Assembly: GCA_947570615.1 (NCBI GenBank)
Contig: CANOVJ010000021.1
Span: 1 to 54,013, forward strand
From: an uncultured Lachnospiraceae bacterium
Lineage (GTDB): Bacteria > Bacillota > Clostridia > Lachnospirales > Lachnospiraceae
Length of the DNA stretch: 54,013 nucleotides
Direction: 5' to 3'
Shown here one piece after another: positions 3,119 to 42,853 of the stretch (the stretch's first letter is position 1; each line of letters opens with the position of its first letter). Made by a program: the position numbers and the translations under genes. The notes beneath the pieces are model-generated. The model was given only the letters and a program-made list of their open reading frames with translations. It did no database searches and had not been told where the DNA came from.

Positions 3119-4840
3119 TTATATCACTGCAAAATAACGAAGTGCATCTTTGATTGCTTCTACCTTTTCTGGTGTCGGATGTTTCCTCGGCTGTTTCAAT
3201 TCTTCTACCGCATTAGGAGCATCATACATCGGCAATCCCAAATTTCGCTTTACCTCTGCGATATATGCGGTATGTACCTTGAAGCCGTATTTCGCTTCTA
3301 TGTACTCCTTAATCATTTTGTAGGTCACTTTTTCTTTGGGCTTGTACGCTTCGGCTCTTTTAGCAATACTATCTACCGGAATCTTGCCCTCGCCCTCTCC
3401 AAACTCCACATCAATGTGGATATAACTGTCGGCTTTTTTGTGGGACAAAAGAACTACCGTCTCTGTATGATTTGTAAACGGAAACATATCCACCGCCGCC
3501 GCCCGTTCCATCCGGTATCCCCTGCCGCACAGATACTCCAGATCTCTGGCCAGCGTCTCGGGATTGCAGGACACATATACGATCTTCCCGGGCTTGAGTC
3601 CTGCCAGAGATGCCAGAAACTGTTCGCTTCCTCCCGTCCGGGGCGGATCCATGAAAACCACGTCCACCCGCTCCCCGGTCTGTACGAGCTCCTCCATAAA
3701 CTCTCCCGCGTCCGCCTGATAAAAACGGATATTGGAGACGTGATTTCTTCTGGCGCCGGCCACCGCGTCCTTCACCGCGTCCCGGTTTAATTCCACGCCG
3801 ATACACCTCTGTGCCTTCCTCGCCGCGATCATGCCGATGGTACCTGTTCCGCAGTAGGCGTCCAGCACCGTCTCCTTTCCTGACAGCTGCGCGTACTCCA
3901 GGGCTTTCCCATACAATATCTCCGTCTGCACCGGATTTACCTGATAAAAGGATCCGGGAGAAATCTTGAAAGTCATACCGCAAAGCTCATCCTCAATGTA
4001 CCCCGGGCCGTAGATCACCTGCTCCTTCTCCCCCAGCACCATACTGGTTCTTTTGTCGTTGACATTCACCACGATGGTGGTGATCTGTGGGTGTTCCTTT
4101 CTCAGCGCCTCCACAAAATGATTTTTGGAGGGAAGAATGGGGGAGCGCAGAACCAGCACCACCATGATCTGTCCCGTGTGATATCCCACTCTCACCAGCA
4201 CGTGGCGCAGAAGGCCATAGCCCGTATCCTCGTCATAAACCCTGATCTTAAAGGAGGTGATAAGCTTTTTCACCGTCTGTATGATGGCGGCCGCCTTCCG
4301 ATTCTCCAGAAAGCAGGAATCCGCCGGAACAATCTGGTGGGTCCCCTCCCGGTACACCCCGCAAACGCTCCTGCCCCTTTTGTCCATTCCAAAGGCCGCG
4401 TGTACCTTATGCCGGTAATACCCGGGCTCCTCCATACCGATGATCCCCTCCAGCCTTCCGTAGGGCTTTAACAGCTCCGCAACCTGCTGCTTTTTGAGGG
4501 CGAGCTGTTTGTTATAATCCATATGTAAAAGCTGACAGCCTCCGCATTTCTGGTAGACCGGGCATTTTTCCGTGCCGGAGCGTTTTTTGCCCTGCCCTGC
4601 CTGGCCTGCGGGCTTTTTCCCGGCCGTTCCCGGCCTGGTCGCGCCCGGCCCTGCAGTCCCTAGCCTGCTGCCTTTTCCGGCGCTTTTCACTGAGCGGGGC
4701 CTCTCCTTTAACATAAGGATATCCGGCGGAGTCTGGCATCCGTTGTTATCCCTTCGGGAGCTTCCCGGCTGCCCGCCGGCGCCTCTGCCGCCGTCCCGTT
4801 CGGCTCCCTGCCGCCTCTTCGTCGTTTTTCCTCTCTGCAT
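3119..4840 (-). CDS. rlmD: 23S rRNA (uracil-C5)-methyltransferase RlmD/RumA with element-derived C-terminus
   Basis: 573 residues, longer than the usual 380-460. Cys93, Cys99, Cys102 and Cys176 fit the iron-sulfur cluster of RumA. DAYCGTGTIG is SAM motif I, DPPR is motif IV, and SCNP (about Cys425) holds the catalytic Cys. The TRAM domain common in RlmD is absent. Residues 1-90 are low-complexity and basic; residues 31-45 are the translation of a dispersed 23-base hairpin repeat. Residues 469-573 are a C-terminal domain not part of ordinary RlmD, encoded beyond the inferred element junction. A GGAGG site lies 10 bases before the ATG. The true start could be further in, near the first cysteine. 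Confidence 0.88.
   Translation of the reverse strand: MQRGKTTKRRQGAERDGGRGAGGQPGSSRRDNNGCQTPPDILMLKERPRSVKSAGKGSRLGTAGPGATRPGTAGKKPAGQAGQGKKRSGTEKCPVYQKCGGCQLLHMDYNKQLALKKQQVAELLKPYGRLEGIIGMEEPGYYRHKVHAAFGMDKRGRSVCGVYREGTHQIVPADSCFLENRKAAAIIQTVKKLITSFKIRVYDEDTGYGLLRHVLVRVGYHTGQIMVVLVLRSPILPSKNHFVEALRKEHPQITTIVVNVNDKRTSMVLGEKEQVIYGPGYIEDELCGMTFKISPGSFYQVNPVQTEILYGKALEYAQLSGKETVLDAYCGTGTIGMIAARKAQRCIGVELNRDAVKDAVAGARRNHVSNIRFYQADAGEFMEELVQTGERVDVVFMDPPRTGGSEQFLASLAGLKPGKIVYVSCNPETLARDLEYLCGRGYRMERAAAVDMFPFTNHTETVVLLSHKKADSYIHIDVEFGEGEGKIPVDSIAKRAEAYKPKEKVTYKMIKEYIEAKYGFKVHTAYIAEVKRNLGLPMYDAPNAVEELKQPRKHPTPEKVEAIKDALRYFAVI
3434..3469 (-). other. Inferred attachment-site region of the element in rlmD
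   Basis: These bases code for HTETVVLLSHKK, the conserved last motif of the RumA fold. Immediately after it the protein leaves the family and base composition shifts to AT-rich. Elements that integrate in rumA recombine in this conserved stretch. The exact crossover cannot be set without the other junction or an empty-site relative. Confidence 0.55.
4718..4740 (+). repeat. Dispersed 23-base hairpin repeat, copy inside rlmD
   Basis: The arms GATATC and GGCATC (one mismatch, one G-T pair) and inner GGC/GTC pair around a GGA loop. The copy is preceded by TTAACATAAG and followed by CGTTGTTATC, the family linker. It is transcribed and translated antisense to its listed orientation, giving NNGCQTPPDILML in RlmD. 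Confidence 0.8.
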
Positions 4841-4867
4841 TTTCTCTTTCCCTCCGCCAAAAATACG

Positions 4868-4969
4868 GACAGCACGCTCCGCGAACTAACCCTTATGCCA
4901 AACAACGGACAGCGCGCTTTGCGAGCCATCCTTATGTTGAACAAATGCCGCCTCGCTTTGCCGGCCAAC
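4868..4969 (-). repeat. Array of three 23-base hairpin repeats
   Basis: Minus-orientation copies at 4868-4890, 4908-4930 and 4947-4969 start 40 and 39 bases apart. The first two fold into near-complete stems with loops GGA and AAA; the third is degenerate. The linker reads, on the minus strand, TTGTTCAACATAAG, as in the other arrays. It lies just upstream of the rlmD start. Confidence 0.8.
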
Positions 4970-5113
4970 TCATTGTATCCAACTCCGCCTCGCCTTTCAA
5001 ACCAGCTTACCGCAACAAAACCCCATGCAGACTACATGAGGTTTTTTCTGAACAGATCCCGTAAGAATTTCTCCTTCCGGATCAATCTTCGCTTTTTAAC
5101 GCCCCAAATCCTG

Positions 5114-5133
5114 CCGCCGGATATACCCGGCGG
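5114..5133 (-). terminator. GC-rich hairpin downstream of the 93-residue gene
   Basis: Arms CCGCCGG (5114-5120) and CCGGCGG (5127-5133) form a strong 7-bp stem about 120 bases after the stop codon at 5250. No T-run follows on the minus strand, so termination is only possible. Confidence 0.35.
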
Positions 5134-5249
5134 CGGGAACCTCTTCCTGTGAGAGAACTGTCCTGCAAAAACCGTTCCGACGATCCCTCCCGGCAGGAAA
5201 TATCCGGCAGGAAATCCCGATGGGAAGTTCCTGGTGGGAATTTTCCACT

Positions 5250-5531
5250 TTATCCCGCATCCCGCAGCTTTATATCCTCGAGCCCCTGCGCAAGCTCAGT
5301 GGCCCGCTCCACATCCGCCTCGTTGATCCGCACGGTAAAGACATTTCTTTCCTTCTGATTCTCGCTCCCGAAAAGCCTTGCCAGCCAGGAACGCTCCTGC
5401 CACTCGATAAAATACGATATCCGGTTCTGCAAAAAAAGCTTCTCCAGCTTTTTCTTGCTTTCCTGACTGTACACTCTGCAAAAGGAAACCTCTCTGTTAA
5501 ATGCCTGATCATCAAAAATCACTGACGCCAA
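5250..5531 (-). CDS. Conserved hypothetical protein, 93 residues
   Basis: I do not recognise the family. It is a soluble alpha/beta-looking protein (VIFDDQAFNREVSFCRVYS and RNVFTVRINEADVERATELAQ) with charged helices and no membrane segment. The frame opens with TTG at 5531; the only upstream purine tract is GGGGGAAAA, so the start is uncertain and GTG at 5522 is an alternative. It lies 123 bases downstream of the next minus-strand gene. Confidence 0.6.
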   Translation of the reverse strand: MASVIFDDQAFNREVSFCRVYSQESKKKLEKLFLQNRISYFIEWQERSWLARLFGSENQKERNVFTVRINEADVERATELAQGLEDIKLRDAG

Positions 5532-5654
5532 TTTTCCCCCACACCCTTCCGTACACGATTTTTACGTCATCTGATTTCATTATAATTTGTAAACCGAAAG
5601 ATTTCAACATCAGATTAAAATATTTGCGATGCAGGATCTGCCATGCAATACTTG

Positions 5655-5942
5655 CTATGCCCTCCCGGCCTGCTCCCACTCGGCCCTGTGCTCCTCGTAC
5701 ATGGCGTTGAGGTAATCCGCCGCCTCCCGCACCCCCTGGGCGCTGAGTTCAAACTCGCGCCGCCGCTTCTTTTCCTCCTGCGTGCGGGCATAGCAGTAAG
5801 GCTCCGGCCAGATGATCACCTCCAGCACGGAGCCCTCCTCCTTTTCCTTCTTTTTCAGCATATATCTCATGCCGCCCATACTGCCCGTGTACTCTTCCTT
5901 TTTGATATAATTCAGCACATGGAATTTTTCCGCGTCGATCAT
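5655..5942 (-). CDS. Conserved hypothetical protein at the end of the fab operon
   Basis: 95 residues from ATG at 5942, chosen because GGGAGA lies 5 bases upstream and the ATG overlaps the fabT stop by one base (TGATG), which suggests translational coupling. The 100-residue version starting at 5957 has no ribosome site. The product is charged, with KKKEKEEG and EEKKRRREFELS tracts, and contains VLEVIIWPEPYCYART. No known domain was recognised. Its position makes it the last gene of the fatty-acid operon, but a role in lipid metabolism is only suggested by position. Confidence 0.7.
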   Translation of the reverse strand: MIDAEKFHVLNYIKKEEYTGSMGGMRYMLKKKEKEEGSVLEVIIWPEPYCYARTQEEKKRRREFELSAQGVREAADYLNAMYEEHRAEWEQAGRA

Positions 5943-6394
5943 CACTTCTCCCTGCATGTTTCATGCCCCTGAAAATAATCCACCAGGCTTCCCAGCGACC
6001 GGATCAGGATCCCTGTCTCCTTCTCGTCAAACCCATCCAGCGCAGAACGAACCATCTCCCTGTGAAAATTCTGATGATGGAGAAACGCTCTTTTGCCCTT
6101 ATCGGTGAGGGAAAGCAGCACCAGCCGCTTGTCCTCATCGCTTCTCTCCCGCAGCACATAGTGGTTTCTGGTCAGCCTGTCGATGGCTTTGGTAAGGGTT
6201 CCCACGGTGACGGAAAGCCTTTTGGCCACCGAGGAGCTGGTTTTTGGCTCCTGTATGTCGATGGCCTCGATCACATGCATGTCATTTATGGTGATATCCT
6301 GAAACTCACCGGTGATCAGGGCTTTCTGTTCGATGTTCATGATCTCCTGAAATAATGTAATAAGTAATGTATTTAAAGTCTGATTCAGTTCCAT
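5942..6394 (-). CDS. fabT: MarR-family repressor of fatty-acid synthesis, FabT-like
   Basis: 150 residues. A MarR winged helix covers about residues 35-115, with SSSVAKRLSVTVGTLTKAIDRLTRNHYV as recognition region and RSDEDKRLVLLSLTDKG as the wing. It sits in the fab cluster directly after fabH; in streptococci and related Firmicutes fabT adjoins fabH and represses fab genes with long-chain acyl-ACP as corepressor. Three FabT-type palindromes lie at the operon promoter near 14000. Here the gene is at the distal end of the operon, unlike the usual fabT-first order. Start ATG with GGGAAGGACA upstream. Confidence 0.85.
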   Translation of the reverse strand: MELNQTLNTLLITLFQEIMNIEQKALITGEFQDITINDMHVIEAIDIQEPKTSSSVAKRLSVTVGTLTKAIDRLTRNHYVLRERSDEDKRLVLLSLTDKGKRAFLHHQNFHREMVRSALDGFDEKETGILIRSLGSLVDYFQGHETCREK

Positions 6395-6455
6395 TGTCCT
6401 TCCCTCTTTGGGCCCCGGAAAATTCCTGTCTCCACCACGCCGGGCGGAAAAAGAC

Positions 6456-7418
6456 CTACCAGGTGAGCACCGCCGCTCCCCAGGTGAGCCCGGCCCCGAA
6501 GCCGGCCAGCACGATTTTGTCCCCCCGCGAAAGGCTCCCCTCCCGGTTCACGTGATCAAGCAGGATGGGAACACTCGCTGCTGATATATTACCACATTTC
6601 TGAAGATTTGTCGGGAATTTTTCCATGGGCCGGCCCATTTTTTTTGCCACCGACTCTATAATCCGGATGTTGGCCTGATGGAGCAGGAAATATTTGATCT
6701 CCTCCGCAGGGATCTTCGCCTGCTCCAGAGCCTTTTCTATGGCGCAGGGCACGGTTTTCACCGCAAATTTATAGACTGCCCGGCCGTCCATCCGGGTAAA
6801 ATCCACCGCGGCTTCGTTCTGCGCCAGGGGATTGTTCACCGGCCTGTTATGGCAGGTCAGGGCCATACCGCTTTTTCCGTCGGTCCCCTGCACCAGGCTC
6901 AGAATTCCCTCCTCCTGCCTTCTCACCAGGGCGGCGCCCGCCCCGTCTCCAAAGAGTACGCAGGTTCCCCGGTCCTGCCAGTCCATCAGTCTCGAGAGCG
7001 TCTCCGCCCCGATCACCAGCGCCGTCTCGGCCATCCCGGCTTTCATGTAGGCGTCCGCAATGGCAAGGCCGAACAGAAAGCCCGCGCAGGCCGCGTTGAT
7101 GTCGAAGGCCACCGCATTGTCAGCCCCAAGCCCGCTCTGCACCTGGGCGGCAGTGGAGGGAAAATACATATCCGCAGACACTGTTCCCACGATGATCAGG
7201 TCGATTTCATCCGCATCCGCCCCTGCGTTCTCCAAGGCGTTTTTTCCCGCCCGGACAGCCATGGAGACAGTGGTCTCCTCCACCGCCAGGTGGCGCTGCG
7301 CGATCCCCGTCCTGTCCCTGATCCATTCGTCCGTGGTGTCCACCCACTTTTCGAGCTCCCGGTTGCTGACCGTGTGCTCCGGCAGACAGCTTCCGGTTCC
7401 AATAATTCTTGCCGGCAT
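6456..7418 (-). CDS. fabH: 3-oxoacyl-ACP synthase III (KAS III)
   Basis: 320 residues, the usual FabH length. The enzyme condenses acetyl-CoA (or another short acyl-CoA) with malonyl-ACP to start fatty-acid chains. Catalytic Cys111 lies in NAACAGF, His in LLHQANIRI and Asn in CGNISAASVP. The start is ATG 7418 with AGGAGGAG 4 bases upstream; a longer frame to 7490 reads into accDA and lacks a site. It begins 10 bases after the accDA stop. Whether it prefers acetyl-CoA or branched primers cannot be told from what I can see. Confidence 0.95.
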   Translation of the reverse strand: MPARIIGTGSCLPEHTVSNRELEKWVDTTDEWIRDRTGIAQRHLAVEETTVSMAVRAGKNALENAGADADEIDLIIVGTVSADMYFPSTAAQVQSGLGADNAVAFDINAACAGFLFGLAIADAYMKAGMAETALVIGAETLSRLMDWQDRGTCVLFGDGAGAALVRRQEEGILSLVQGTDGKSGMALTCHNRPVNNPLAQNEAAVDFTRMDGRAVYKFAVKTVPCAIEKALEQAKIPAEEIKYFLLHQANIRIIESVAKKMGRPMEKFPTNLQKCGNISAASVPILLDHVNREGSLSRGDKIVLAGFGAGLTWGAAVLTW

Positions 7419-7428
7419 GATTCTCCTC

Positions 7429-9132
7429 CTAGAATTTCCGAAATCTTTCATATCTGTGGCGGGCAATCTCTTCCCCGTCCATTTTCTCAAACCTTCGCAA
7501 AAACTCCTTCATATTTGCCCGCATAAATCCGGCGATATCCCGCACGGTGGAGCTGTCCGCGCCGCCGTATTCCGGTACGATGGTCTCGATCACCGAAAGG
7601 CTCTTTAAGTCCTGGGCCGTGATTCCCATCACCTGCGCCGCCTCCTGCGCCCTCCTTCCATCCTTCCACAGGATGGAGGCAAAGCCCTCCGGCGAGAGAA
7701 CAGAGTAAGTGGCGTTCTCCAGCATCCACACCCCGTTTCCCAGGGCGAGGGCAAGCGCGCCGCCGCTTCCTCCCTCCCCTGTTATGACAGAAAGAATGGG
7801 CGTGCGGATTGCGGACATTTCAAAGAGGTTGCGGGCGATGGCCTCCCCCTGCCCTCTCTCCTCCGCCTCCATCCCGGGATAGGCCCCGGAGGTGTTTACA
7901 AAGCAGATAATGGGACGATGGAATTTCTCCGCCTGCTTCATCAGGCGAAGGGCCTTCCGGTAGCCCTCCGGGGAGGGCATCCCGTAATTTCTGCTCGCGC
8001 ACTCCTTCCCGTCGTTTCCCTTCTGGACGCCGATCACCGTCACGGGTACTTTCTCCAGCCAGGCGATTCCGCCCACGATGGCCCTGTCGTCCCCGCAGAG
8101 GCGGTCTCCGTAAAACTCCATGAAATCCTGAAAAATCAGGTTAATGTAGGTGAGAGTCGAGGGCCTTTGAAGGCTTCTGGCCTCCTTCACCTTCTCCCAG
8201 GCAGTCCGCTCACCGGCCCTGGCCTGCCTTTCTCTGGAAATCTCCGTGGGGATAAACTCCCCGGACCAGGCGGCCATGGCCTCCCCGTCCAGGGGACGGT
8301 GGGCTCTGAGAATCTGATACAGCGTCCTTTTCAGCTCGTGGCGCTCCACGATCCGGTCCACAAAGCCGTGCTCTGCCTGAAACTCCGCCCGCTGAAAGCC
8401 CTCCGGCAGCTTCTCCCCGATGGTCTGCTCGATCACCCTGGGGCCCGCAAATCCGATCAGCGCTCCGGGCTCCGCCAGGATGATATCTCCCAGCATGGCA
8501 AAGCTGGCCGTGACCCCGCCGGTGGTGGGATCCGTCAGCACCGACACATACAAAAGCCCGGCGTCCGAATGCTTCTTAAGGGCCGCGGAGGTCTTGGCCA
8601 TCTGCATAAGGGAGACGATTCCCTCCTGCATCCTGGCGCCGCCCGAGCAGCAGAACAGAACGACGGGGAGCTTTTCTCTGGTGGCTCTCTCCACAGAGCA
8701 GGCGATCCTCTCTCCCACGGCCTGCCCCATACTTCCCATGAGAAAACGGGAATCGCATATTCCAAGACAGACTCTTTCCCCGTAAATAGCTGCCTCTCCC
8801 ACAGTGACGCCCTCGGTCAGTCCGGTCTTTTCCCTGACATCCTTAAGCTTCTCCTCATATCCCGGAAACAGCAGAGGATTATTCCCCTGCTTCTCCTCAA
8901 ACCAGGGCGTAAAGCTTCCCTTATCGCACACCATGCGGATCCTGTTTTTGGTCCTCACCCGAAAATATGCTCCGCAGGCCGTACAGATATAATTATTCTC
9001 AATGATCTGCGCCCGCTCCAGCTCTCTCTGGCAGGAGGGGCAGACGATGGTCTGCGGCTTTACGGGCGCCTGCGTCTTTTCCTCTCCGCCCTTTATGGGA
9101 TGATACTTCCTGATCCGAAACAATCCTGACAT
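7429..9132 (-). CDS. accDA: Acetyl-CoA carboxylase carboxyltransferase, beta-alpha fusion (AccDA)
   Basis: 567 residues. The N-terminal half is AccD: a four-cysteine zinc ribbon (Cys31, Cys34, Cys50, Cys53) and a carboxyltransferase fold with GGARMQEG and [16 protein letters not shown]. The second half, from about residue 300, is Acc[24 protein letters not shown]-like VQKGNDG and [17 protein letters not shown]. Together they move the carboxyl group from carboxybiotin to acetyl-CoA, giving malonyl-CoA. accA and accD are usually separate genes in Clostridia. accB and accC, usually next to them, are absent from this operon. Start ATG with AAAGGAG 8 bases upstream. Confidence 0.92.
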
Positions 9133-9148
9133 TTTCCCTGCTCCTTTT

Positions 9149-9580
9149 CTACTTCGAAATGGCGAAGGTCAGCTCCGCCTGCACGGCCACCTGGCCGTCC
9201 ACGGTGGCTGTGGCCCTGCCCACGCCGATGCTGCCCTTGCGCTTAATGATCTCCGTCTCCAGCATCAGCACATCCCCGGGGATGACCTTTCTCTTAAACC
9301 GGGCGGAGGAGATGGCGGCGAAATAAGCCGTCTTTCCCCTGTCCTCCTCGGTGCTTAAGATGGCCACCGCCCCTGCCTGGGCCAGCGCCTCCACGATCAG
9401 TACGCCCGGCATCACCGGCTCCGTGGGGAAATGTCCCTGAAAAAAGGGCTCGTTGCAGGAAACACACTTTCTGGCCAGAGCCCTTACCCCCGGCGTGAGC
9501 TCCTCCACCGTATCCAACAGCATAAAGGGATACCTGTGGGGAATGATCTCCATAATTTCTTTCGCTGATAACAATGACAT
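9149..9580 (-). CDS. fabZ: 3-hydroxyacyl-ACP dehydratase FabZ
   Basis: 143 residues. Dehydrates beta-hydroxyacyl-ACP to the trans-2-enoyl form in elongation. It has the HotDog helix sequence with His50 in FFQGHFP and Glu64 in [11 protein letters not shown], the catalytic pair 14 residues apart. The ATG at 9580 is preferred because AAAGGAG lies 8-9 bases upstream; the frame continues to 9616 without a site. It is 51 bases after fabF and 16 before accDA. Confidence 0.95.
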
Positions 9581-9631
9581 ACTTCCTGCTCCTTTCCCTT
9601 CAAACGCCGTCTGCATGCGCAGTCCTGCCGG

Positions 9632-10885: not shown

Positions 10886-10927
10886 ACCATCCTTACCTGA
10901 AGTCCTTCTGTTCCAAAGCTCCTGTTC

Positions 10928-13853: not shown

Positions 13854-13977
13854 AATCTCTCTCCTGTTTTTTGTGGTTTTGTTCTTTTTCCTTTTTACGC
13901 TCAGACACCGTTCCGGACGCCATCCGGTTTGTGGAATCTGGCCTGTCGGGCCGGACGCCGTTCTGCGCAGCAAATAC

Positions 13978-14022
13978 TTTGACCATCAAATAGTTTGATA
14001 ATCAAGTTATTTGACGGTCAAA
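13978..14022. promoter_or_regulatory. Three FabT-type operators with 16-base spacing
   Basis: Palindromes of the form TTTGA-N3-TCAA occur at 13978-13990 (TTTGACCATCAAA), 13994-14006 (TTTGATAATCAAG) and 14010-14022 (TTTGACGGTCAAA), each 16 bases apart. The central one with its flanks (AGTTTGATAATCAAGTT) is almost identical to the known FabT box. They begin at the -10 element and cover the start of the fab transcript, where a repressor would block initiation. Confidence 0.88.
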
Positions 14023-14050
14023 GTATATATCTGTTAAAAACGTTTGTCAA
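14022..14050 (-). promoter_or_regulatory. Promoter of the fab operon
   Basis: On the minus strand TTGACA (14050-14045), a 17-base spacer and TATACT (14027-14022) make a near-consensus sigma-A promoter. The start would be near 14015, inside the third FabT box, leaving a leader of about 160 bases before acpP. Confidence 0.88.
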
Positions 14051-14058
14051 CCATATTT

Positions 14059-17239: not shown

Positions 17240-17279
17240 TGACCCAGGGATGGCTGGCGGAGCCTGGCACCCTGGGTCA
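17240..17279. terminator. Bidirectional hairpin between aroF and xerD, built on a repeat unit
   Basis: Arms TGACCCAGGG (17240-17249) and CCCTGGGTCA (17270-17279) pair perfectly between two convergent genes. The loop contains a 23-base family hairpin. It likely ends transcription from both sides, although no long T-run is present. Confidence 0.6.
17249..17271 (+). repeat. Dispersed 23-base hairpin repeat, copy in the aroF-xerD gap
   Basis: Inner stem GGC-GGA-GCC with outer pairs. It is preceded by the 16-base linker CGTTGTCTGACCCAGG (17233-17248) and by what looks like the 3' part of another unit (17216-17232), so this is the remains of a tandem pair. Confidence 0.7.
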
Positions 17280-24789: not shown

Positions 24790-24927
24790 GACAGGGCGCT
24801 CTGCCGGCCATCCGTTGTCACCATAAGCCGGCCCGCGAAGCGTGACGACGTCTGTTTAACATAAGAACGGTTCGCGAATCGCGCTGTCCCTCGCTTCATA
24901 TAAAGACGGTTGGCAAAGCGTGCCGTC
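24790..24927 (+). repeat. Array of four 23-base hairpin repeats
   Basis: Copies at 24790-24812 (degenerate), 24827-24849, 24866-24888 and 24905-24927, the last three exactly 39 bases apart. Linkers such as GTCTGTTTAACATAAG match those of other arrays. The fourth copy pairs GACGG with CCGTC, where copies elsewhere pair GATG with CATC: both sides have changed together. Confidence 0.88.
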
Positions 24928-32862: not shown

Positions 32863-32878
32863 AGGGCCCCCGCGGGTT

Positions 32879-35206: not shown

Positions 35207-35886
35207 TCCCGGCACCTCCCCAGATCAGTGAGTACACCGTCCGATACCTGCAGCACTCTGTCCGCCGTCTGCGCAATGCTTCGGTTATGGGTGATCATAA
35301 TGATCGTCTGTTCGTATTTCCGGGACGCTTCCTTAAGCAGGGCGATCACCTCGCTGCTGTTTTGGGTATCCAGATTTCCGGTGGGCTCGTCGGCAAGAAT
35401 CAGCGACGGGCGGGTGATCAGGGCCCGGCCGATGGCTACCCGCTGCTGCTGTCCGCCGGAGAGCTGGCCTGGCAGATGAGTACGCCTCTGCTTCAGATTC
35501 AGCACTGCAAGAAGCTCCTCCAGATATCCTCTGTCGGGCTTCTGGTAATCCAGCAGAACCGGAAAAATAATATTCTGCTCCACGCTCAGCTCCGGGATCA
35601 GATTGAAGGCCTGAAAGATAAAGCCGATATTTCTGCGCCGGAAGATGGTGAGACTGCGATCGTTCATGGAAAACACATCGTTTCCACCGATCCTCACCCG
35701 GCCGGAGGTGGGCGTATCCAGCGCGCCGATCATGTTCAGAAGCGTGCTCTTTCCGGAGCCGGATTCCCCCACAATCGCCACATACTCCCCCCTGGGGACG
35801 CAGAAGCTGACATTTTTCAGAGCCTGCACAGCGTTTTCCCCACTGCCGTAAGTCTTACAGATTTTGTTGACTTCCAGTAAATTCAT
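35203..35886 (-). CDS. ABC transporter ATP-binding protein (MacB/LolD type)
   Basis: 227 residues. Walker A is GESGSGKST (40-48), the signature is LSGGQQQRVAIGRAL and Walker B is LILADEPTGNLDT. The GNLDT form is typical of the LolD/MacB/BceA group that pairs with FtsX permeases. ATG 35886 has AGAGGTG upstream. It overlaps the permease by 4 bases and lies about 100 bases after the sensor kinase. Confidence 0.95.
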   Translation of the reverse strand: MNLLEVNKICKTYGSGENAVQALKNVSFCVPRGEYVAIVGESGSGKSTLLNMIGALDTPTSGRVRIGGNDVFSMNDRSLTIFRRRNIGFIFQAFNLIPELSVEQNIIFPVLLDYQKPDRGYLEELLAVLNLKQRRTHLPGQLSGGQQQRVAIGRALITRPSLILADEPTGNLDTQNSSEVIALLKEASRKYEQTIIMITHNRSIAQTADRVLQVSDGVLTDLGRCRE

Positions 35887-35991
35887 CGTGTAAACACCTC
35901 TTTCTGTTTTGATAAGGCCAATATAGCAGGAAAATCCTACATTCATATTACAGAAAGCCTACAGTTTTGCAGGAAAACTCCGCCGCATCCG

Positions 35992-37062
35992 TCAGAGAGC
36001 CTGCGCACGCTGCGAAACGCCGTCTGAGACAGAGCCCTGTATCAGAAGATTTATCGTGAAAGAGGTTTCGATTCCCGGGACGCTGTCCGCCTCGATGGTT
36101 CCGTTGTGGGCCTCCACTATGGCCCTTGTCAGGGACAGGCCAAGCCCGATCCCCTGGGTATCCCTGGAAAACCGGCTCCGGTAGAACCGTTTGAAAATAT
36201 GGTGCAGATCCTCCGGGCAGATTCCGCTGCCGTTGTCCTTCACGGTAATCTGTACAACGGAGGCGAAGGCCCGCCATTCGATACGGATCACATCCCCTTT
36301 CTGTGTGTGATCCAGGGCATTTTTGACCAGATTGCCCACGGCCTCAATCATCCAGCTCCGGTCGCAGAAAAGCGTGAGCTCCTCACTGCCCGATACGGTG
36401 ATCTCCTTTCCCTCCTGCCCGGCGCGAAAGAGAAAATAATTTCTCACCGTCTGCGCCAGTTCGGACACATTTTCCACAGACTTCTCCAGCACAATGGTTC
36501 CCGCGTCAAAACGGGTTATTTTCAGAAGATTCTGCACCAGCGTCTCCAGCCGGTCAAGCTCCTGCCCGGAAAGGGCGCAGAACCGCCGGACTGTGGGAAT
36601 CGCTCCGGCTTCGTCCTGGATAATGCCGTTGTAGATATTCAGGGCGGCCAGGGGCGTTTTGAGCTGATGAGAAATATCCGATATGGTGTTCTTCAAAAAG
36701 AGCTTCGCGCTTTTTTCATTTTCCGCATGGGCGTTTAAGATGGCGACCAGGGAATTGACCTCGTGAAAGAGCCGGCAGAGCTCTCCCTCATCGTTGCACT
36801 CTATGGTAATGCTGCTGTTGCCGGATATATATTCCCTGATCTGCGCCGCTGCCTGCTCCATGACGATGTGCTGCTGTCTGAAATACCTGAAACACAGACC
36901 CGAAATGGCCACGCTCATACACAGAGAGCCGGCCAGGATCCCGAGTCCGGCGTTCGGAGCGCCCCGCAGCAGAAGCAGCGCTGAAACCGCCGTAAAGAAA
37001 AGCACGCACAGAGCCATGCCGCAGAAAAGCCTTTTAATCTTCCGGTTTACGAATATTTTCAT
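35992..37062 (-). CDS. Sensor histidine kinase
   Basis: 356 residues. Two membrane segments (about 11-32 and 36-60) with only a few residues between them, so there is no external sensing domain. His132 in ISDISHQLKTPLAALN is the phosphorylated residue; NLVKNALDHT (N box), DNGSGICPED (G1) and GIGLGLSLTRAIVEAH (G2) follow. ATG 37062 has GAGGTG upstream and is 8 bases after the regulator gene. The short loop recalls kinases that sense through a partner ABC transporter, and one is encoded next door. Confidence 0.9.
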   Translation of the reverse strand: MKIFVNRKIKRLFCGMALCVLFFTAVSALLLLRGAPNAGLGILAGSLCMSVAISGLCFRYFRQQHIVMEQAAAQIREYISGNSSITIECNDEGELCRLFHEVNSLVAILNAHAENEKSAKLFLKNTISDISHQLKTPLAALNIYNGIIQDEAGAIPTVRRFCALSGQELDRLETLVQNLLKITRFDAGTIVLEKSVENVSELAQTVRNYFLFRAGQEGKEITVSGSEELTLFCDRSWMIEAVGNLVKNALDHTQKGDVIRIEWRAFASVVQITVKDNGSGICPEDLHHIFKRFYRSRFSRDTQGIGLGLSLTRAIVEAHNGTIEADSVPGIETSFTINLLIQGSVSDGVSQRAQAL

Positions 37063-37070
37063 GGCACACC

Positions 37071-37757
37071 TCACTGCGGAGTATTCCATCTGTATCCCAT
37101 GCCGCGCACCGTGACGATATGGTCAGGCTTTCCCGGATCGTCCTCGATTTTGGTACGGAGCCTGCGGATATACACTGTGAGAGAATTGTTTTCTATGTAA
37201 TTTTCATTGCAGTCCCACAGATTTCCCAGGATCTGCTCCGGGGAAAGGATCCGGCCGGCATTTTCCAGAAACAGGCGCAGCAGTCTGTACTCCCCCGCCG
37301 TCAGATCCAGCAGGCGCTCTCCCTTGTACGCCTCCCCATTCAGAAGCCGGATGCAGATATCGCCTGATACCAGCTCTGTGACGGCACTGCCAAAATTTTC
37401 GCTTCTGCGGAGCAGAGCATTGATTCTCGAGAGAAATACGGCCAGCTTGAAGGGCTTCGTCATATAGTCGTCGGCCCCTATGTCCAGTCCCATAATAATA
37501 TCCGTCTCCTCATCCGCCGCCGTCAGAAACATGACGGGGATTTTGGATGAGCGGCGTATCTTCCTGCAGAAATCAAATCCGCAGCCGTCGGGGAGCGATA
37601 CGTCAAGAATCGCCAGATCGTACGCCCCCTTCTCCCACAATGTGTCCGCCTGGGCCGCAGTGCGGGCCAGAGTTACCTCATAGCCCTGCTTTTTCAGGGC
37701 AAAGCACAGTCCCTGCGTCAGACTCAGATCATCCTCCAGTAAAAAAAGCCGTTTCAT
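37071..37757 (-). CDS. OmpR-family response regulator
   Basis: 228 residues. Receiver domain with acidic EDD (8-10), phospho-acceptor Asp52 in LAILDVSLPDG and Lys101 in MTKPFK; winged-helix output domain with LTAGEYRLLRLFLENAGRILSPEQIL and RRLRTKIEDDPGKPDHIVTVRGMGYRW. It is first in the run regulator-kinase-ATPase-permease and probably controls the transporter. Confidence 0.93.
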   Translation of the reverse strand: MKRLFLLEDDLSLTQGLCFALKKQGYEVTLARTAAQADTLWEKGAYDLAILDVSLPDGCGFDFCRKIRRSSKIPVMFLTAADEETDIIMGLDIGADDYMTKPFKLAVFLSRINALLRRSENFGSAVTELVSGDICIRLLNGEAYKGERLLDLTAGEYRLLRLFLENAGRILSPEQILGNLWDCNENYIENNSLTVYIRRLRTKIEDDPGKPDHIVTVRGMGYRWNTPQ

Positions 37758-37854
37758 TTGGTGTCGTTCCTTTCTGTTTACAGTTGCAGCCGGTCTTTAT
37801 CAGAATCATTATACCTGCGGCGTCAGACGATGGCAAGCGGATACGGCCGCAACA

Positions 37855-37892
37855 CAATCGGGCAGGGGAACGTCTTTTCCCCTGCCCGATTT
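37855..37892. terminator. Strong hairpin between the coat genes and the two-component system
   Basis: AATCGGGCAGGGGA and TTCCCCTGCCCGATT pair over about 14 bp. It lies 17 bases after the coat gene stop and most likely terminates it, but lacks a long T-run. The left arm is shared with 28699-28731. Confidence 0.6.
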
Positions 37893-37908
37893 CTGAGCCG
37901 TTCTGTGT

Positions 37909-38169
37909 TTAAAGAGTCTTGCTGGTGAACAGGCTCTTTACATGGTCAACCTCCTCCTGGGTGGCTTTCGCCGCAGGCACATAATAGGATTTCTCCCTGG
38001 CCAGCCTGTAAAGCTCCTCCTGGGACTGTTCGCAGGTGTTACGGAACTGCTTGAGAGTCTGTTTGAGCTCCGGATTCTCAGTCTGCGCGATCATCTCCCC
38101 AAAACGCACCAGCTCGCCGTTGATGCCGGTGAGTGTATCTGCTACCATGGTCTTTTCATTCAGCTGCAT
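37909..38169 (-). CDS. Spore coat protein, CotF-like
   Basis: 86 residues, mainly helical. LNEKTMVADTLTGINGELVRFGEMIAQTENPELKQTLKQFRNTCEQSQEELYRLAREKSYYVPA is typical of the small CotF-domain spore coat proteins of Clostridia. It follows a second, shorter coat gene by 12 bases, forming a sporulation pair. The C-terminal EEVDHVKSLF is conserved in the family as I know it. Expression in late sporulation is expected. Confidence 0.8.
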   Translation of the reverse strand: MQLNEKTMVADTLTGINGELVRFGEMIAQTENPELKQTLKQFRNTCEQSQEELYRLAREKSYYVPAAKATQEEVDHVKSLFTSKTL

Positions 38170-38181
38170 GTCTTTTCCCTC

Positions 38182-38367
38182 CTACTGCAAAAATTTCATC
38201 AGTTCGTTTTTGTTTTCCATAGCCGATTTGGCCCCTTTTTCAAAAAACTGCTTAATCTGCGAATCCGTCGCAGAGGACGCATACTCCTTCATTTTGCAGT
38301 GGGATACGTCATAACCGCCGATCAGGTGGCGCAGGTTCTGTAAATCCAGTTCCGATAAATTAGCCAT
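38182..38367 (-). CDS. Small spore coat-associated protein
   Basis: 61 residues, helical (LSELDLQNLRHLIGGYDVSHCKMKEYASSATDSQIKQFFEKGAKSAMENKNELMKFL). Such short proteins occur directly before CotF-like genes in Lachnospiraceae and resemble the N-terminal part of CotF-type proteins. A strong AGGAGG site precedes the ATG. A possible sporulation promoter lies upstream. Confidence 0.75.
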   Translation of the reverse strand: MANLSELDLQNLRHLIGGYDVSHCKMKEYASSATDSQIKQFFEKGAKSAMENKNELMKFLQ

Positions 38368-38419
38368 AAAAAAATACCTCCTGAAAATATAGTGCTCAGC
38401 ATCTGTTGCCTGACGCTTT

Positions 38420-38448
38420 TATTATTTCCAGAAGGCAGCTTTATATTC
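38420..38448 (-). promoter_or_regulatory. Possible forespore (sigma-G/F-type) promoter of the coat genes
   Basis: On the minus strand GAATA, 17 bases and AATAATA. The sigma-G consensus is GMATR and CATNNTA, so one mismatch in the -10. Coat genes are more often mother-cell controlled, and AT-rich sequence makes chance matches likely. Confidence 0.3.
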
Positions 38449-38500
38449 TGAGATTTGTTTCAAAAACATGACCATTATTTTGAAAACCGCAAAACATCAT

Positions 38501-40414
38501 TTAATCGTCCAGCCAGAAATCATCGTCATCCTCGTCGATCTGGTCCTGATAGAGCCTGCGGGTCTGCATGAGCGGTTCCTGCTCCCTGAGCTTTTTCTCC
38601 CCGGCTGCGGCGCCAGTCTTCCCCGCTTTTCCCTTTGCCGCGGCCTTCTTCTGTCCGGAGGAGGGCTCCTTCCCGCTCTTTTGGGAGGAGGAACTCTTTC
38701 GGGCCTTCGCGCCGTTTTTTCCGGAGCGGGGCTTCTTCCCCGAATTTCCCTTTGAGGCCCCGCCTTTTTCAGCATCCTCCCTGAGAATCCGCAGCCTGCG
38801 GGCCATGGCCAGCAGCATATGCCCTTTTGGCATGCCCTTAAGCTCCTCCTGGGAGAGAGCCCGCCAGCGGATCACCAGAACAAAGTACACCAGCGCTCCC
38901 ACCACGACCGCCGCTCCCAGGGAAAGGATGTTGATTTTGCTCACATAATAAAGCCCCTGATACACGCCCAGGGCCACAACCCCCATAATCAGCGAGGCGG
39001 CTATGGGAAGCAGGAAAGTCCGCAGCATCTCCTGCCGGTAAACCAGATGACGGCGCACGGAAATCTGATTCAGCACGCACAGGATAAAGGCGTAGAGCAC
39101 AGTGGCAAAGACATAGCAGTACAGGCTGTACTTTTCCTCCAGAAGCAGCATCATTGCCACCATCACGCCCCCGTGGAGCACCACCGCCAGGGATGCGTTG
39201 ATGATGGGCGCCTTCATCTGTCCGATGGATTGCAAAATCCCCTGGGTAAGAGTGGAGAGTCCGTAAAATACGATGCTCACCGCCATGCCTGCAAGAAGCA
39301 GAGAGGCGATATCAAGGGAATCCGGCTGAGGGAAGATCACCATCATCACCGGCCTGGCCAGCACGCCGATCCCCACCGCGCAGGGAATGGAAATCAGCAT
39401 GGTAGCCTTCACCGCCCTGGCCACCTTTCCCCGCACATCCTTTAAACGCCCCTTCACAAAGTCGCTGGAAATACCCGGGATCAGCGCCGTGGACATGGCG
39501 GAGGCGAAGGCGATGGGAATATTGGAAATCTTGGTCCCCTTGGACACCACGCTTAAGTCCGCCGCAACCACCGCCTCGTCCAGCTTCCGCACTCCCATCA
39601 TGATCTGCTGGTAGATCCGGTTATCCATGAAATTATTGATATTATAAATGCCGGTACTCAGGATAAAGGGGGTCACCACCATCAGGATCATCTTAAAGAT
39701 GTCCCCGTAGGATTCCTCCTTATGGCCGGTATCCCGTTTCATTCTTCTGCGGATGGTTTTCCCGTTCAGGGCGTAGACGCCGCCCATGAACAGAAGCCCC
39801 GCCAGAACCCCCGCGCCTGTGCCTATGGTGGCCCCTGCCGCTCCCCAGGAGGCGATGACGGTGGGATCCTGCCCCCTGGCCATGTCAACCAGCACCCAGG
39901 CCATACCGATACTGGCCGCGGCGTTCACAAGCTGCTCCACGATCTGGGAGACGGAGGTCTGCACCATGGTTTTGTGGGCCTGGAAATAGCCCCGCAGAAC
40001 CCCCAGTATTCCGCTGAAAAAGATGGTGGGGGCAAGGATCTTAAGGGGAAGAACGGCGCTCTCCATCTTCACCATAAAACCGGCCCCGAAAAACACAAAT
40101 AAGCTGGCAATACCACCGACTACCAGCACATAAATGAAAGCGCAGCAGAAAATTCTGTGCGCATTCCGATATTCTTTTGTCGCAAGCCGCTGTGCAATCA
40201 CCTTGGACACCGCGGAAGGGATACTGTAGGAGGAAATCAGAAGAACAATGCTGTACGCGTAGTAAGCGCTGTTGTAGTATCCGTTCCCCTCGTCCCCGAT
40301 GATGGCCACCAGCGGCGTATTGTACAGCAGCCCGATAATGCGGACGATGATCCCGGCCGACGCCAGGATCCCCGCCTGCATGATAAAGCTGTCTTTCTTT
40401 TTTTTATCCGGCAT
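38501..40414 (-). CDS. SpoVB/MurJ-like polysaccharide flippase with a charged tail
   Basis: 637 residues. Residues 1-530 carry about 14 membrane segments of the MOP superfamily; SFIMQAGILASAGIIVRIIGLLYNTPLVAIIGDEGNGYY and AYSIVLLISSYSIPSAVSKVIAQRLATKEYRNA match SpoVB/YtgP/MurJ-type lipid II flippases. The last 100 residues are unusual: a Lys/Ser/Gly-rich segment (about 547-612) followed by an acidic DDDDFWLDD end. Which flippase role (vegetative or sporulation) cannot be told; it lies next to coat genes and glgA. Confidence 0.85.
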   Translation of the reverse strand: MPDKKKKDSFIMQAGILASAGIIVRIIGLLYNTPLVAIIGDEGNGYYNSAYYAYSIVLLISSYSIPSAVSKVIAQRLATKEYRNAHRIFCCAFIYVLVVGGIASLFVFFGAGFMVKMESAVLPLKILAPTIFFSGILGVLRGYFQAHKTMVQTSVSQIVEQLVNAAASIGMAWVLVDMARGQDPTVIASWGAAGATIGTGAGVLAGLLFMGGVYALNGKTIRRRMKRDTGHKEESYGDIFKMILMVVTPFILSTGIYNINNFMDNRIYQQIMMGVRKLDEAVVAADLSVVSKGTKISNIPIAFASAMSTALIPGISSDFVKGRLKDVRGKVARAVKATMLISIPCAVGIGVLARPVMMVIFPQPDSLDIASLLLAGMAVSIVFYGLSTLTQGILQSIGQMKAPIINASLAVVLHGGVMVAMMLLLEEKYSLYCYVFATVLYAFILCVLNQISVRRHLVYRQEMLRTFLLPIAASLIMGVVALGVYQGLYYVSKINILSLGAAVVVGALVYFVLVIRWRALSQEELKGMPKGHMLLAMARRLRILREDAEKGGASKGNSGKKPRSGKNGAKARKSSSSQKSGKEPSSGQKKAAAKGKAGKTGAAAGEKKLREQEPLMQTRRLYQDQIDEDDDDFWLDD

Positions 40415-40444
40415 TGCTGCTGCGCTCCAAAGAAACAGAAATAT

Positions 40445-41890
40445 TTACCCTATCAGCCAATCGTACATCTCCTGGTATTTCGCCGCCGAAACATTCCATG
40501 AGAAATCGGCCGCCATGGCCCGGTCAACGATCTTGTTCCACTCACGCTTCTTATCGTAATAAATCTGCTCCGCATAACGGATCGTCCCCAGCATCTCATG
40601 GGCATTGTAGTTTGTAAAGGAAAATCCCGTGCCCGTACCCTCATACTCGTTGTAGGGCTCCACCGTATCCTTCAGTCCCCCGGTCTCCCTGACAATGGGA
40701 ACCGTGCCGTAGCGCAGGCTCATGAGCTGGCTTAAGCCGCAGGGCTCAAACAGGGAGGGCATCAGGAACGCGTCGCTGGCCGCGTAGATCTTGTGGGATA
40801 ACGCCTCCGAATAATATATATTCGCGGACACCTTATCATTATACTTCCAGTCAAAATGACGGAACATATTTTCATAGCGCTCCTCGCCGGTGCCCAGCAC
40901 GACGATCTGCACACTGTCCTGACAGAGCTCATCCATCACATAGGCGATCAGGTCAAATCCCTTCTGGTCGGTGAGCCTGGACACGATACCGATCATAAAC
41001 GTCTTATCGTCCTGGGCAAGCCCAAGCTCCGCCTGCAGGGCGCGTTTGTTCTTCACCTTTTCCTTGCGGAAATTCATGGCATTGTAGTGATGCTCAATAT
41101 ACTGGTCCGTCTCCGGGTTGAACTCGTCGTAATCGATCCCGTTTACGATTCCGCGCAGGGAATTGCTCCTGGCCCGCATCAGCCCCTCCAACTGCTCCCC
41201 GTAAAAAGGCATCTTGATCTCCTCGGCGTACGTATCGCTCACCGTGGTGATAGCGTCCGCGTACACCAGTCCGCCCTTTAAGAGGTTGGCGTCCTTGTAG
41301 AGCTCCAACTTGTCCGGGGTAAAGAAATAGCCCGGAAGCCCCGTGATATCCTGTACCTCCTTCACGCTCCATTTGCCCTGGAATTTCAGGTTATGGATGG
41401 TCATAACCGACTTGATTCCCCGGTAGAAATCGCTTCCCTGGAAGCGCTCCTTCAGATACACGGGAACCAGCCCGGTCTGCCAGTCGTGACAGTGGATCAG
41501 ATCCGGCCGGAAGCCGATCACCGGCAGGATGGACAGCGCCGCCTTGGAAAAGAACGCGTATTTTTCGATCTCAAAAAGTGCGTTGTCCCCGTAGGGCTTA
41601 AAACCGCCAAAGAACATCTCATTGTCGATAAAATAATATTTTACCCCGTCCTCCTCCGCATACATGACGCCCACATACTCATTCTTCCAGTGGAAATCCA
41701 TGTAAAAATGTGTGACATAACTCATCCTGTCCTTCATCTGCTGGGACATACAGGTATATTTGGGCAAAATCACCCTCACGTCAAAATACTGCCTGTCAAT
41801 ACATTTCGGGAGAGACCCCACCACATCCGCCAGACCGCCCGTCTTTATGAATGGAACGCCCTCCGACGCCACAAAAAGAATATTTTTCAT
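40445..41890 (-). CDS. glgA: Glycogen synthase
   Basis: 481 residues, GT5 family. Extends alpha-1,4-glucan from ADP-glucose. Lys16 in KTGGLADVVGSLPK binds ADP-glucose, and the C-terminal lobe has MPSLFEPCGLSQLMSLRYGTVPIVRETGGLKDTV. The usual partners glgC, glgD, glgB and glgP are absent from the window. It is 30 bases after the flippase start region on the same strand. Confidence 0.95.
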   Translation of the reverse strand: MKNILFVASEGVPFIKTGGLADVVGSLPKCIDRQYFDVRVILPKYTCMSQQMKDRMSYVTHFYMDFHWKNEYVGVMYAEEDGVKYYFIDNEMFFGGFKPYGDNALFEIEKYAFFSKAALSILPVIGFRPDLIHCHDWQTGLVPVYLKERFQGSDFYRGIKSVMTIHNLKFQGKWSVKEVQDITGLPGYFFTPDKLELYKDANLLKGGLVYADAITTVSDTYAEEIKMPFYGEQLEGLMRARSNSLRGIVNGIDYDEFNPETDQYIEHHYNAMNFRKEKVKNKRALQAELGLAQDDKTFMIGIVSRLTDQKGFDLIAYVMDELCQDSVQIVVLGTGEERYENMFRHFDWKYNDKVSANIYYSEALSHKIYAASDAFLMPSLFEPCGLSQLMSLRYGTVPIVRETGGLKDTVEPYNEYEGTGTGFSFTNYNAHEMLGTIRYAEQIYYDKKREWNKIVDRAMAADFSWNVSAAKYQEMYDWLIG

Positions 41891-41976
41891 TATAAACCCT
41901 CCAACAGTTATTGTTATCAGATATTATACATCATCCCACCTGCCAATAAAAGACAAAAATATAAAATAAACAAAAA

Positions 41977-42684
41977 CTACAGCTCTCTGTTCCACTTACG
42001 ACAGAGCAGGGCTCCCACCGCCAGGGAGGCCATATCCGTAAGGGGCGCAGTGTAAATCACTCCCCTGAGTCCGAAGAACAGGTTCAGCCCAAAAAGCAGG
42101 GGCAGATAAAAAATTCCTTTGTCCAGCAGTGCTGTCAGCGTCGCGTAAGAAGCCTTTCCGGCAGACTGCAAAAAGACAGCGCAGAGCTGATAAATCCCGT
42201 AAAATGGCCCCATGAGCATGGACGCCGTTACCATGCGCTCTCCCAGCGCGATCACTTCGTCGTGCGCAATAAATGCCGAAATCAGAGCATGCCTGCCGAT
42301 CAGACATCCCGCTGTCAGTGCGCTTCCTGTGGCCACCGTCAGGATCCCGAGATTTCTCACGATTCTGCGCATCCTCGCAAGGTTTCCTGCTCCGCAGTTA
42401 TAGGAGAGCGCGGGCTGCATCCCCATGCAGATTCCCATGGCCAGGGAGAGGACAATGCAGCCGCCGCTCCCCGGAAGCGTCCCCAGGCCGGAGAGCATAC
42501 TGAACACCGGAGCGCACAGCGAAACTGCCGCGACTTTGACGGGATCCGCCGTTTTCCCGATAAAGTAGACGTCCGCCATATCATAGATAACCATAATCAG
42601 CATGATCACAATCGCGGGGATGCAGAGATGAACTGCCAGCTCCGGAAAAGAACCCTTTTGTAACATTTCTTCGTTTTTCTTCAT
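41977..42684 (-). pseudogene. MATE efflux transporter with a large internal deletion
   Basis: 235 residues against about 450 for the family. Residues 1-75 match the N-terminus (VIYDMADVYFIGKTADPVKVAAVSLCAPVF, then GTLPGSGG), and from residue 76 on the sequence continues with what is normally the second half (MGMQPALSYNCGAGNLARMRRI). Roughly 200 residues are missing at about 42455, in frame. Start and stop are intact, and ATG 42684 has GGGAGG upstream. With only half the helices it is unlikely to transport by itself. The divergent TetR gene was probably its repressor. Confidence 0.75.
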
Positions 42685-42791
42685 GTCCGCTGCCTCCCTG
42701 CTTTTGATAAATCCATTGTAAAATGCCGCCGCATGGAGTACAATCATCAATATATCACCAACTGTCGAGTTAATGCTTTTTATTACAATAA

Positions 42792-42853
42792 GCCGGCTCG
42801 CGGAGCGTGACAGCGTTTGTTTAATATAAGGATGTCTGGCGAAGCCTGGCATC
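42792..42853 (+). repeat. Two 23-base hairpin repeats in the MATE-TetR gap
   Basis: Copies at 42792-42814 and 42831-42853 start 39 bases apart with the linker GTTTGTTTAATATAAG. The second pairs GATG with CATC and GGC with GCC around GAA, the cleanest copy in the window. It lies within 85 bases of the TetR start. Confidence 0.88.

Follow-up and report, generated by a model that had tools for sequence, protein, structure and literature searches.

We describe here a repeated DNA unit of 39 nucleotides (nt) which, in our judgement, is rather probably a non-autonomous mobile element, moving as one folded strand of DNA and settling behind a hairpin followed by a T tract. The unit is found in a stretch of 54,013 nt, called the window below (contig CANOVJ010000021.1, our G000:C21), from the genome of an uncultured Lachnospiraceae gut bacterium near Parablautia (G000; 4.05 Mb, 112 contigs, 94.8% complete). 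An earlier account of this stretch, made from its letters only and referred to here as the sequence-only reading, had described a dispersed family of 23-base hairpins with covarying arms. This family is confirmed here and is larger than first described; the interpretation given to it is partly supported by our data, and it did not contain the start of arrays behind terminator T tracts or the covarying basal helix.

The unit has the polarity 5'-AACATAAG-(23-nt hairpin)-CGTTGTTT-3', and all 15 copies previously listed in the window can be oriented by it, the degenerate ones roughly. Heads read AACATAAG, ACAATAAG or CCAATAAG, and tails CGTTGTTT or GTTTGTT. Three consensus units were distinguished: type A, with GATG..CATC arms; type B, with GACAG/CTGTC; and type C, with GCTGG/CAGC and the head TACAATAAG. 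The conserved 16-base linker of the sequence-only reading consists of the tail CGTTGTTT of one unit and the head AACATAAG of the next; because these two pair within a unit, the fold extends beyond the 23 bases described before.

Array starts and orthologous sites

Units lying within 60 nt of each other are on the same strand in 63 cases and on opposite strands in 3, so that arrays run head to tail; the orientation of units follows the direction of the genes. The spacing in 63 neighbouring pairs is 36-42 nt with a mode of 39, in agreement with the 39-base repeat noted before; the two orientations reported at that time occur between sites, but hardly within arrays. By subfamily, the neighbours are A-A 21, C-A 15, B-A 7, A-C 6, A-B 5, B-B 5, C-B 2, B-C 1 and C-C 1, and since they are often of unlike subfamily, slippage alone is disfavoured. 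This bears on a spread that needs no enzyme: stable hairpins of single-stranded DNA would act as primers at T tracts, or be captured there, in the course of replication or repair, and slippage would alter the arrays. Such a process could use the microhomology of the TTGTTT tail with T tracts, and it agrees with the one change of unit number seen within an array and with an enzyme not having been found; whole-unit differences, the single orientation and the unlike neighbours (C-A, A-C, A-B, B-A) are however hard to produce by slippage, and we hold this explanation to be very improbable.

The 5' joint was examined on array starts from loci not selected by their upstream sequence, 33 in G000 and 101 in other genomes. 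A hairpin of -10 kcal or below abuts the 5' side at 13/33 and 61/101 of these starts, respectively (74/134 in total), and the 3' side, used as a control, at 2/33 and 3/101. Similarly, at least five of the last eight bases before the array are T at 25/33 and 81/101 starts (106/134 in total), compared with 4/33 and 9/101 on the 3' side. At T-matched random positions, a loose control as they are mostly coding, the hairpin was found in 13 of 321 cases. Arrays starting right behind a hairpin and T tract are exemplified by loci L006, L024, L065, L084 and L096. T tracts with no strong hairpin also serve as sites, and several of them look, by eye, antisense to ribosome-binding sites.

The T tract itself shows a preference. 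The motif TTRTT is present in the last ten bases of 40/76 T-rich starts of types A and B, and in the first ten bases after the stem of 85/377 unoccupied terminators (p 4e-7), the two groups having been chosen by slightly different T rules; 43 of the 76 starts finish in RTTT or TRTT. The purine may be either required by the target or carried in by the element. In addition, a genome of another genus (G064) holds a sister family, with units GTCCAATAAG...CGTTTGGT. There a hairpin of -8 kcal or below precedes 7/15 array starts, and more by eye, as counted on the 5' side with no 3'-side control; such a hairpin also precedes the single unit of G274.

In recA-anchored regions compared from 20 genomes of the genus, unit sites vary between species. 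Specifically, G168 and G157, which are 88.5% identical over 14.8 kb, differ by two units at the recA site, with a joint of 4 bases in G157 against 2; at G168:C56:85616, 39 nt lie within a T7 run and both flanks align to G157 up to the joint; and the rimO/gmk array of G168 has one unit more than that of G157. Near G168:C56:79991 there is a pair of units behind a terminator-like hairpin, and G157 has, by eye, a similar hairpin with no unit, 63 bases being unaligned. G163 carries two units upstream of a gene where 2 bases of G153 stand at the joint, and two C units behind a terminator which in G169 has none; at the latter site G158 has 47 bases whose beginning resembles a degenerate unit (TAATATAAGG). 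The sites near 79991 and in G158 are qualified as empty sites in this way, and the exact 39-nt and two-unit differences and the joint statistics stand. None of the few joints alignable between species shows a target duplication.

These observations suggest the following mechanism. The whole-unit differences would be gains. An enzyme supplied in trans would recognise, in single-stranded DNA, a hairpin followed by a T tract, many joints having R-T-T(-T), cut there and join in an excised or copied hairpin strand. Each inserted unit, ending in its own hairpin and TTGTTT, would become a new target, and because of this head-to-tail arrays of mixed subfamilies with a 39-base period would arise; the element would, in effect, mimic a terminator. 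As the unit is itself a hairpin with TTGTTT, and its landing sites are often hairpins with T tracts, one joining rule would explain both sites and arrays, and it would give dispersed insertion, single orientation, unlike neighbours, 39-nt spacing and no target duplication. If this is true, the bacterium's own terminators are the landing sites, places in the genome where insertion harms little, and every copy is the next landing site.

Fold and covariation of the unit

In types A and B a 4-bp basal helix pairs AACA of the head with TGTT of the tail; its counterpart is ACAA with TTGT, or TCAA with TTGA, in type C, and CCAA with TTGG in G064. Further features of the fold were counted over 204 units, and because these were recognised by consensus similarity the counts lean toward conservation: an internal loop TAA/GT separates the basal helix from the main stem in 171/204 units, the main stem of 10-11 bp has a T.T mismatch in 152/204, a C-G pair closes the loop in 188/204, and the triloop is GNA in 145/204 and RRA in 188/204. 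The GAA, GGA and AAA loops and the seventh-pair mismatch of the sequence-only reading are thus recovered. At L028, near position 1474, one type B unit carries its stem the other way round with respect to head and tail (GACAGCACGC..TCGAACTGTC), which looks like a flip of the hairpin in place.

Covariation of the arms, also claimed before, was measured against shuffled alignments. In a set of 35 units (A2) there are 56 double-change cells against 29.0 in shuffles, with a covariation score of 0.383 against 0.208, and none of 500 shuffles reached either value. A C-like set of 36 sequences, selected by the TAA loop and not by pairing, gave 47 cells against 19.7 and a score of 0.280 against 0.147 (0/500 as high for both), as well as 9 double-change pairs against 6.0 (7/500 as high). 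Counted over 178 distinct units, double changes number 41 at basal pair 2 and 48 at basal pair 3, the shuffled maxima being 22 and 26, and basal pair 4 shows none beyond shuffles. The shuffles leave the relatedness of the units in place; nevertheless, AU 15, CG 9 and UA 5 at the single basal pair 2-37 of 36 sequences are hard to explain other than by covariation. The covariation in both helices supports the proposed selection on the folded form.

Folded as DNA, four units gave z-scores of -3.9, -3.9, -2.6 and -3.2 (0, 0, 3 and 2 of 200 shuffles as good); folded as RNA, -3.6, -4.2, -0.9 and -1.7 (0, 0, 37 and 13 of 200), clear in two. Passages in PMC4686876 and PMC6479982 describe GNA triloops with G-C pairs as unusually stable DNA mini-hairpins. 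From the GNA loops with their C-G closing pair, and from the DNA z-scores, there is moderate evidence that the folded form is single-stranded DNA.

Copies in the window and distribution

Two covariance models were used: R1, trained on 35 units of G000 (14 window copies and 21 others, the copy listed at 24790 being excluded), and R2, built from C-like units. At E <= 0.0002, R1 recovers 14 of the 15 listed copies in the window, which is a consistency check only, because R1 was trained on them, and the copy at 24790 has no score; weak or degenerate copies are those listed at 17249, 19039, 19074 and 19666. The copies, as whole units, are the following:

4710..4748, plus strand: type A unit, R1 45.0 bits, 35/39 to the type A consensus, preceded by CTCTCCTTT; overlaps the open reading frame (ORF) read as rlmD (3119-4840, minus strand)
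4860..4898, minus strand: type B-like unit, third in a head-to-tail array of three, R1 31.4 bits
4900..4938, minus strand: unit, second in the array of three, R1 49.8 bits
4939..4977, minus strand: type C-like unit, first in the array of three, R1 29.5 and R2 34.5 bits
17241..17279, plus strand: doubtful copy in the aroF-xerD interval, R1 28.6 bits
19031..19069, minus strand: degenerate type C-like unit, R1 24.9 and R2 22.7 bits
19066..19104, plus strand: degenerate type B-like unit, R1 27.4 bits
19658..19696, plus strand: degenerate type A-like unit, R1 27.1 bits
24782..24820, plus strand: possible very degenerate unit at the head of the recA-upstream array, by eye only; no R1 or R2 match at E <= 1
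24819..24857, plus strand: type C unit, R1 38.7 and R2 48.5 bits
24858..24896, plus strand: type B unit, R1 32.5 bits
24897..24935, plus strand: type B unit at the array end, in the interval from recA to the next gene, R1 45.3 bits
30959..30997, minus strand: type A unit between yicC-like and rqcH-like genes, R1 44.9 bits
42784..42822, plus strand: type C unit with GCTTTTTAT before it, R1 46.0 and R2 61.9 bits
42823..42861, plus strand: type A unit immediately after that type C unit, the two forming the recurrent C-A pair, R1 50.4 bits

The outer arms of the 17241 copy (GACCCAGG/CCTGGGTC) resemble part of another hairpin, and in an alignment a relative (L130) has, by eye, a terminator-like hairpin there. 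The regions of G155 and G162 syntenic to the recA-upstream array (L128, L129) have no R1 match at E <= 0.1. The statement that every copy except that in rlmD lies between genes nearly stands: the 42784-42861 pair is also inside an ORF, in the 5' part of the mechanically called 41977-42939, whose start is probably over-long. An additional C-like half at 53705 was rejected, as it lies in a coding frame at a chance-level score (R2 E 0.44). Separately, positions 13974-14026 hold an inverted repeat of 26 nt whose arms are 1 nt apart and 88% complementary; no unit is present, and the repeat lies between two ORFs resembling those of an acyl carrier protein and a phosphopantetheinyl transferase.

An independent test comes from the whole genome: a search of its 4.05 Mb for TTGTTTAACATAAGGATG, allowing up to 2 mismatches, gave 32 occurrences, 2 of these in the window, and 0 for the backwards reading. 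R1 gave at least 134 matches at E <= 0.01 in G000, where the best 150 of 1675 candidates were scored, and all genome copy numbers are lower bounds. In 1.46 Mb of collected loci (178 sequences, mostly chosen for containing units) we counted 228 distinct units with at least 25/39 matches to a consensus, and 0 in the reversed sequence. The sequence-only reading had named two outcomes as contrary to it, no surplus of copies elsewhere and no covariation in a larger set; neither occurred, further copies and covariation both being present. Only 12/204 units lie well within ORFs of at least 150 amino acids, against 3236/4080 random positions.

R1 matches are present in 20/24 genomes of the genus, with the highest number in G155 (at least 154); among the matches listed, G168 has at least 113, G157 at least 52 and G163 at least 45. 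The candidates scored in the genus members G154, G160, G161 and G164 gave no R1 match, nor did 16 genomes from other families of the same order. Across one genome per genus, searched with strict filters and few candidates scored, R1 matched 6 of 150 genomes and R2 5 of 250, G000 included in both; with R2, G000 has at least 26 matches and G064 at least 25 (best 26 candidates each), and three others have single matches. A pattern scan of named genomes, from which G000 records were possibly excluded, returned 52 stretches, mainly from Parablautia intestinalis and uncultured Lachnospiraceae. Exact pattern matches were also seen in L063, other JAMPGV010 contigs and L099, titled Muribaculum sp. and Gastranaerophilales; these titles or bins are probably wrong. 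In viral contigs two unit patterns matched 0 and 1 contig, and L228 (IMGVR_UViG_3300035428_000214, listed as viral) has near position 213 one type C-like unit with a T tract before it. A search of the window against Rfam 15 gave 0 matches at gathering, and one of four unit loci gave 3 matches, all under gathering. We recognised no description of this hairpin element in the open-licence literature.

The distribution is relevant to the idea that the units function as back-up terminators or 3'-end elements which selection maintains at the ends of genes and which spread by ordinary recombination only. Their location behind terminators, their form of a hairpin with TTGTTT and their covarying stems would all suit such a function. 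However, close species differ in whether an orthologous site holds units, R1 has no match in four genus members, some units follow T tracts with no hairpin, and identical 39-mers recur at separate sites (3 in the collected G000 loci, 5 in those of G168). We consider this role to be very unlikely.

Enzyme search and comparison with known systems

The sequence-only reading had suggested a RAYT-like or HUH gene as the driver. In G000 we found no Y1_Tnp, RVT_1 or Y2 match and no integron integrase above cut-off; at 94.8% completeness a gene may have been missed. G157, listed as 100% complete, has no Y1 and no Y2 match, but RVT_1 is present. Y1 matches occur in 11/24 genus genomes (11/25 searched, G064 included) and do not track copy number over these 24 (Mann-Whitney p 0.35, copy counts being lower bounds); the same holds for Y2, matched in 7/25 genomes (p 0.77, with the same lower bounds) and in none of G000, G155, G157, G162 and G168. 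RVT_1 was matched in 12/16 genus genomes searched and does not track copy number either (p 0.11, copy counts again being lower bounds). No integron integrase exceeded the cut-off in 16 genomes (15 of the genus and G064), 15 of which have weaker matches that we take to be Xer-like. G064, 61% complete, has no match to Y1, Y2 or integron integrase.

With no Y1 in G000, a clear unit near only one of 15 Y1 loci (L116) and no copy-number tracking, a RAYT/IS200 driver was rejected for this genome, as was an IS91-type Y2 driver, Y2 being likewise unmatched in G000 and not tracking copy number. The compared Y1 proteins are assorted, about 20-97% identical and some cut short. A test for flanked (REPtron-like) genes in the collected loci found 6/234 neighbouring ORFs with units on both sides, none of them recurrent; the two largest clusters of neighbouring ORFs have 7 members each, and one consists of rimO orthologues from a single syntenic region.

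These data weigh on a REP element in the strict sense, whose hairpin would be mobilised now by a resident RAYT/IS200-type Y1 transposase. The size class, the hairpin with an internal loop, the lack of target duplication, the more than 100 copies and their mostly intergenic location are those of a REP, Y1_Tnp occurs in 11/24 genus genomes including the high-copy G150 and G155, and all 4 unit-free genus genomes also have no Y1. Against this, Y1_Tnp is absent from G000, G157, G168 and G163, of which the last three hold the copy numbers given above, and the Y1 proteins show the irregularities just described; we think a strict REP element distinctly unlikely. More probable for our proposed element, and in our opinion most likely, is a Y1-type HUH protein that acted in trans and has since been lost, or an unrecognised recombinase.

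A reverse transcriptase, group IIC-like or other, could instead copy the hairpin behind terminators from RNA. The target choice is like that of group IIC introns, which in the part of PMC4424553 concerned choose terminators and attC hairpins, and RVT_1 is matched in G168 and 11 others of the 16 genomes. Yet RVT_1 is missing from G000, G150 and G155, the three of these 16 genomes with the most copies, Rfam gave no match at gathering in the window and sub-threshold ones only in the four unit loci, and the triloop is better suited to DNA than to RNA; insertion by way of RNA appears to us the least probable of the explanations.

As a separate observation, a TnpB/Cas12f-like protein of 437-473 amino acids is encoded at L251:406-1719 (G000:C60, about 26431) and L252:20-1441 (G150:C15), the two being 55% identical. 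It matches NF040570 under the cut-off, its type was seen in 2/16 genomes by a PF07282 search, both hairpin-rich, and no hairpin unit lies within the two collected loci. Its catalytic acids look replaced, GIALG standing where we would expect GIDLG, and the protein presumably resembles nuclease-dead TnpB-derived regulators.

Several points count against a mobile single-stranded element that lands behind hairpin and T tract. No strong hairpin abuts 40/101 array starts in other genomes and 20/33 in G000; with so many such starts, it may be the T tract that acts as the actual cue, often in the company of a hairpin. The triloop is AAA rather than GNA in 39/204 units, and the preference for DNA over RNA is drawn from four sequences and one loop rule. 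Two of five covariation measures are weak in the A2 set, namely double-change pairs (8 against 6.6, 46/500 shuffles as high) and pair types (20 against 17.7, 60/500), and one, pair types (23 against 22.0, 198/500), is weak in the C-like set. At orthologous sites, the other compared groups have flanks that do not both align, or else each species holds degenerate units or remnants, examples being rimO/gmk and concatenated position 111176 of G163, and such remnants fit old elements as well as fresh ones; single bases at joints are uncertain because the species compared are 82-89% identical, and unequal recombination could change unit number inside arrays with no enzyme. Present mobility, and gain rather than loss at the differing sites, are what we infer, and the searches of G000 for Y1, Y2, RVT_1 and integron integrase did not find the enzyme for such mobility.

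Small hairpin repeats are common in bacteria, and how those with no transposase gene spread is an open question. The comparison with REP elements made by the sequence-only reading is supported: like REP/RAYT systems, the unit is an imperfect hairpin in the 20-40-nt range, covarying, in more than 100 copies and mostly extragenic. It differs in that the foot of its hairpin carries no GTAG or GTGG head, in showing no RAYT gene flanked by two inverted units and, in the collected loci, no recurrent gene beside arrays, and in starting its arrays behind terminator T tracts; and where REPINs and BIMEs are inverted hairpin pairs, inverted pairs are rare here and arrays run head to tail (63 against 3). 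The missing head, inverted pairs and recurrent gene also speak against a strict REP. The letters ATAAG occur in some enterobacterial REPs according to a table in PMC2817692, and the term Firmicutes has 0 occurrences in PMC2817692 and in PMC3733652. CGTC REPs are likewise short palindromes with no dedicated transposase, but in the relevant part of PMC3733652 they are mainly head-to-head dimers and mostly alpha-proteobacterial, and no CGTC tag is present here.

Integron attC sites and ORF-less cassette arrays also have imperfect hairpins, direct-repeat arrays and a basal helix with an unpaired spacer. Unlike them, our units occupy scattered sites, share no AAC/GTT core across all subfamilies (ACAA/TTGT in C, CCAA/TTGG in G064) and have no integron integrase above cut-off in the 16 genomes. 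Pneumococcal BOX/RUP and other miniature inverted-repeat transposable elements are modular small repeats too; 39 nt is small for this group, and no target duplication was seen at sites alignable to the joint. The Y1 HUH enzyme of IS200/IS605 was not found in the 94.8% complete G000, and the Y2 HUH enzyme of IS91 was missing from the five genomes named above. Group IIC introns, whose insertion sites lie behind intrinsic terminators and in attC hairpins (PMC4424553), share with the unit the insertion behind terminator hairpins; the unit differs in its 39 nt, in the lack of a ribozyme in the Rfam search of the window and in the absence of RVT_1 from G000.

In conclusion, because the unit lacks defining features of both REP/IS200 elements and group IIC introns, we class it as a REP-like mobile hairpin with a new target rule. 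A wholly new class, that is, a single-stranded terminator mimic moved by an undescribed enzyme reading only hairpin and T tract, is a tentative idea and on balance unlikely. The ends of the unit, its folded form, its orientation rule and its target rule can be read from the sequence, and as occupied and empty sites exist among close relatives, a search for the enzyme is feasible. The proposed joining rule would work like REP/IS200-type single-strand transposition while sharing its target with group IIC introns. Should terminators in general serve folded single-stranded DNA as landing pads, then one kind of target would connect REP-like elements with group IIC introns and attC hairpins.

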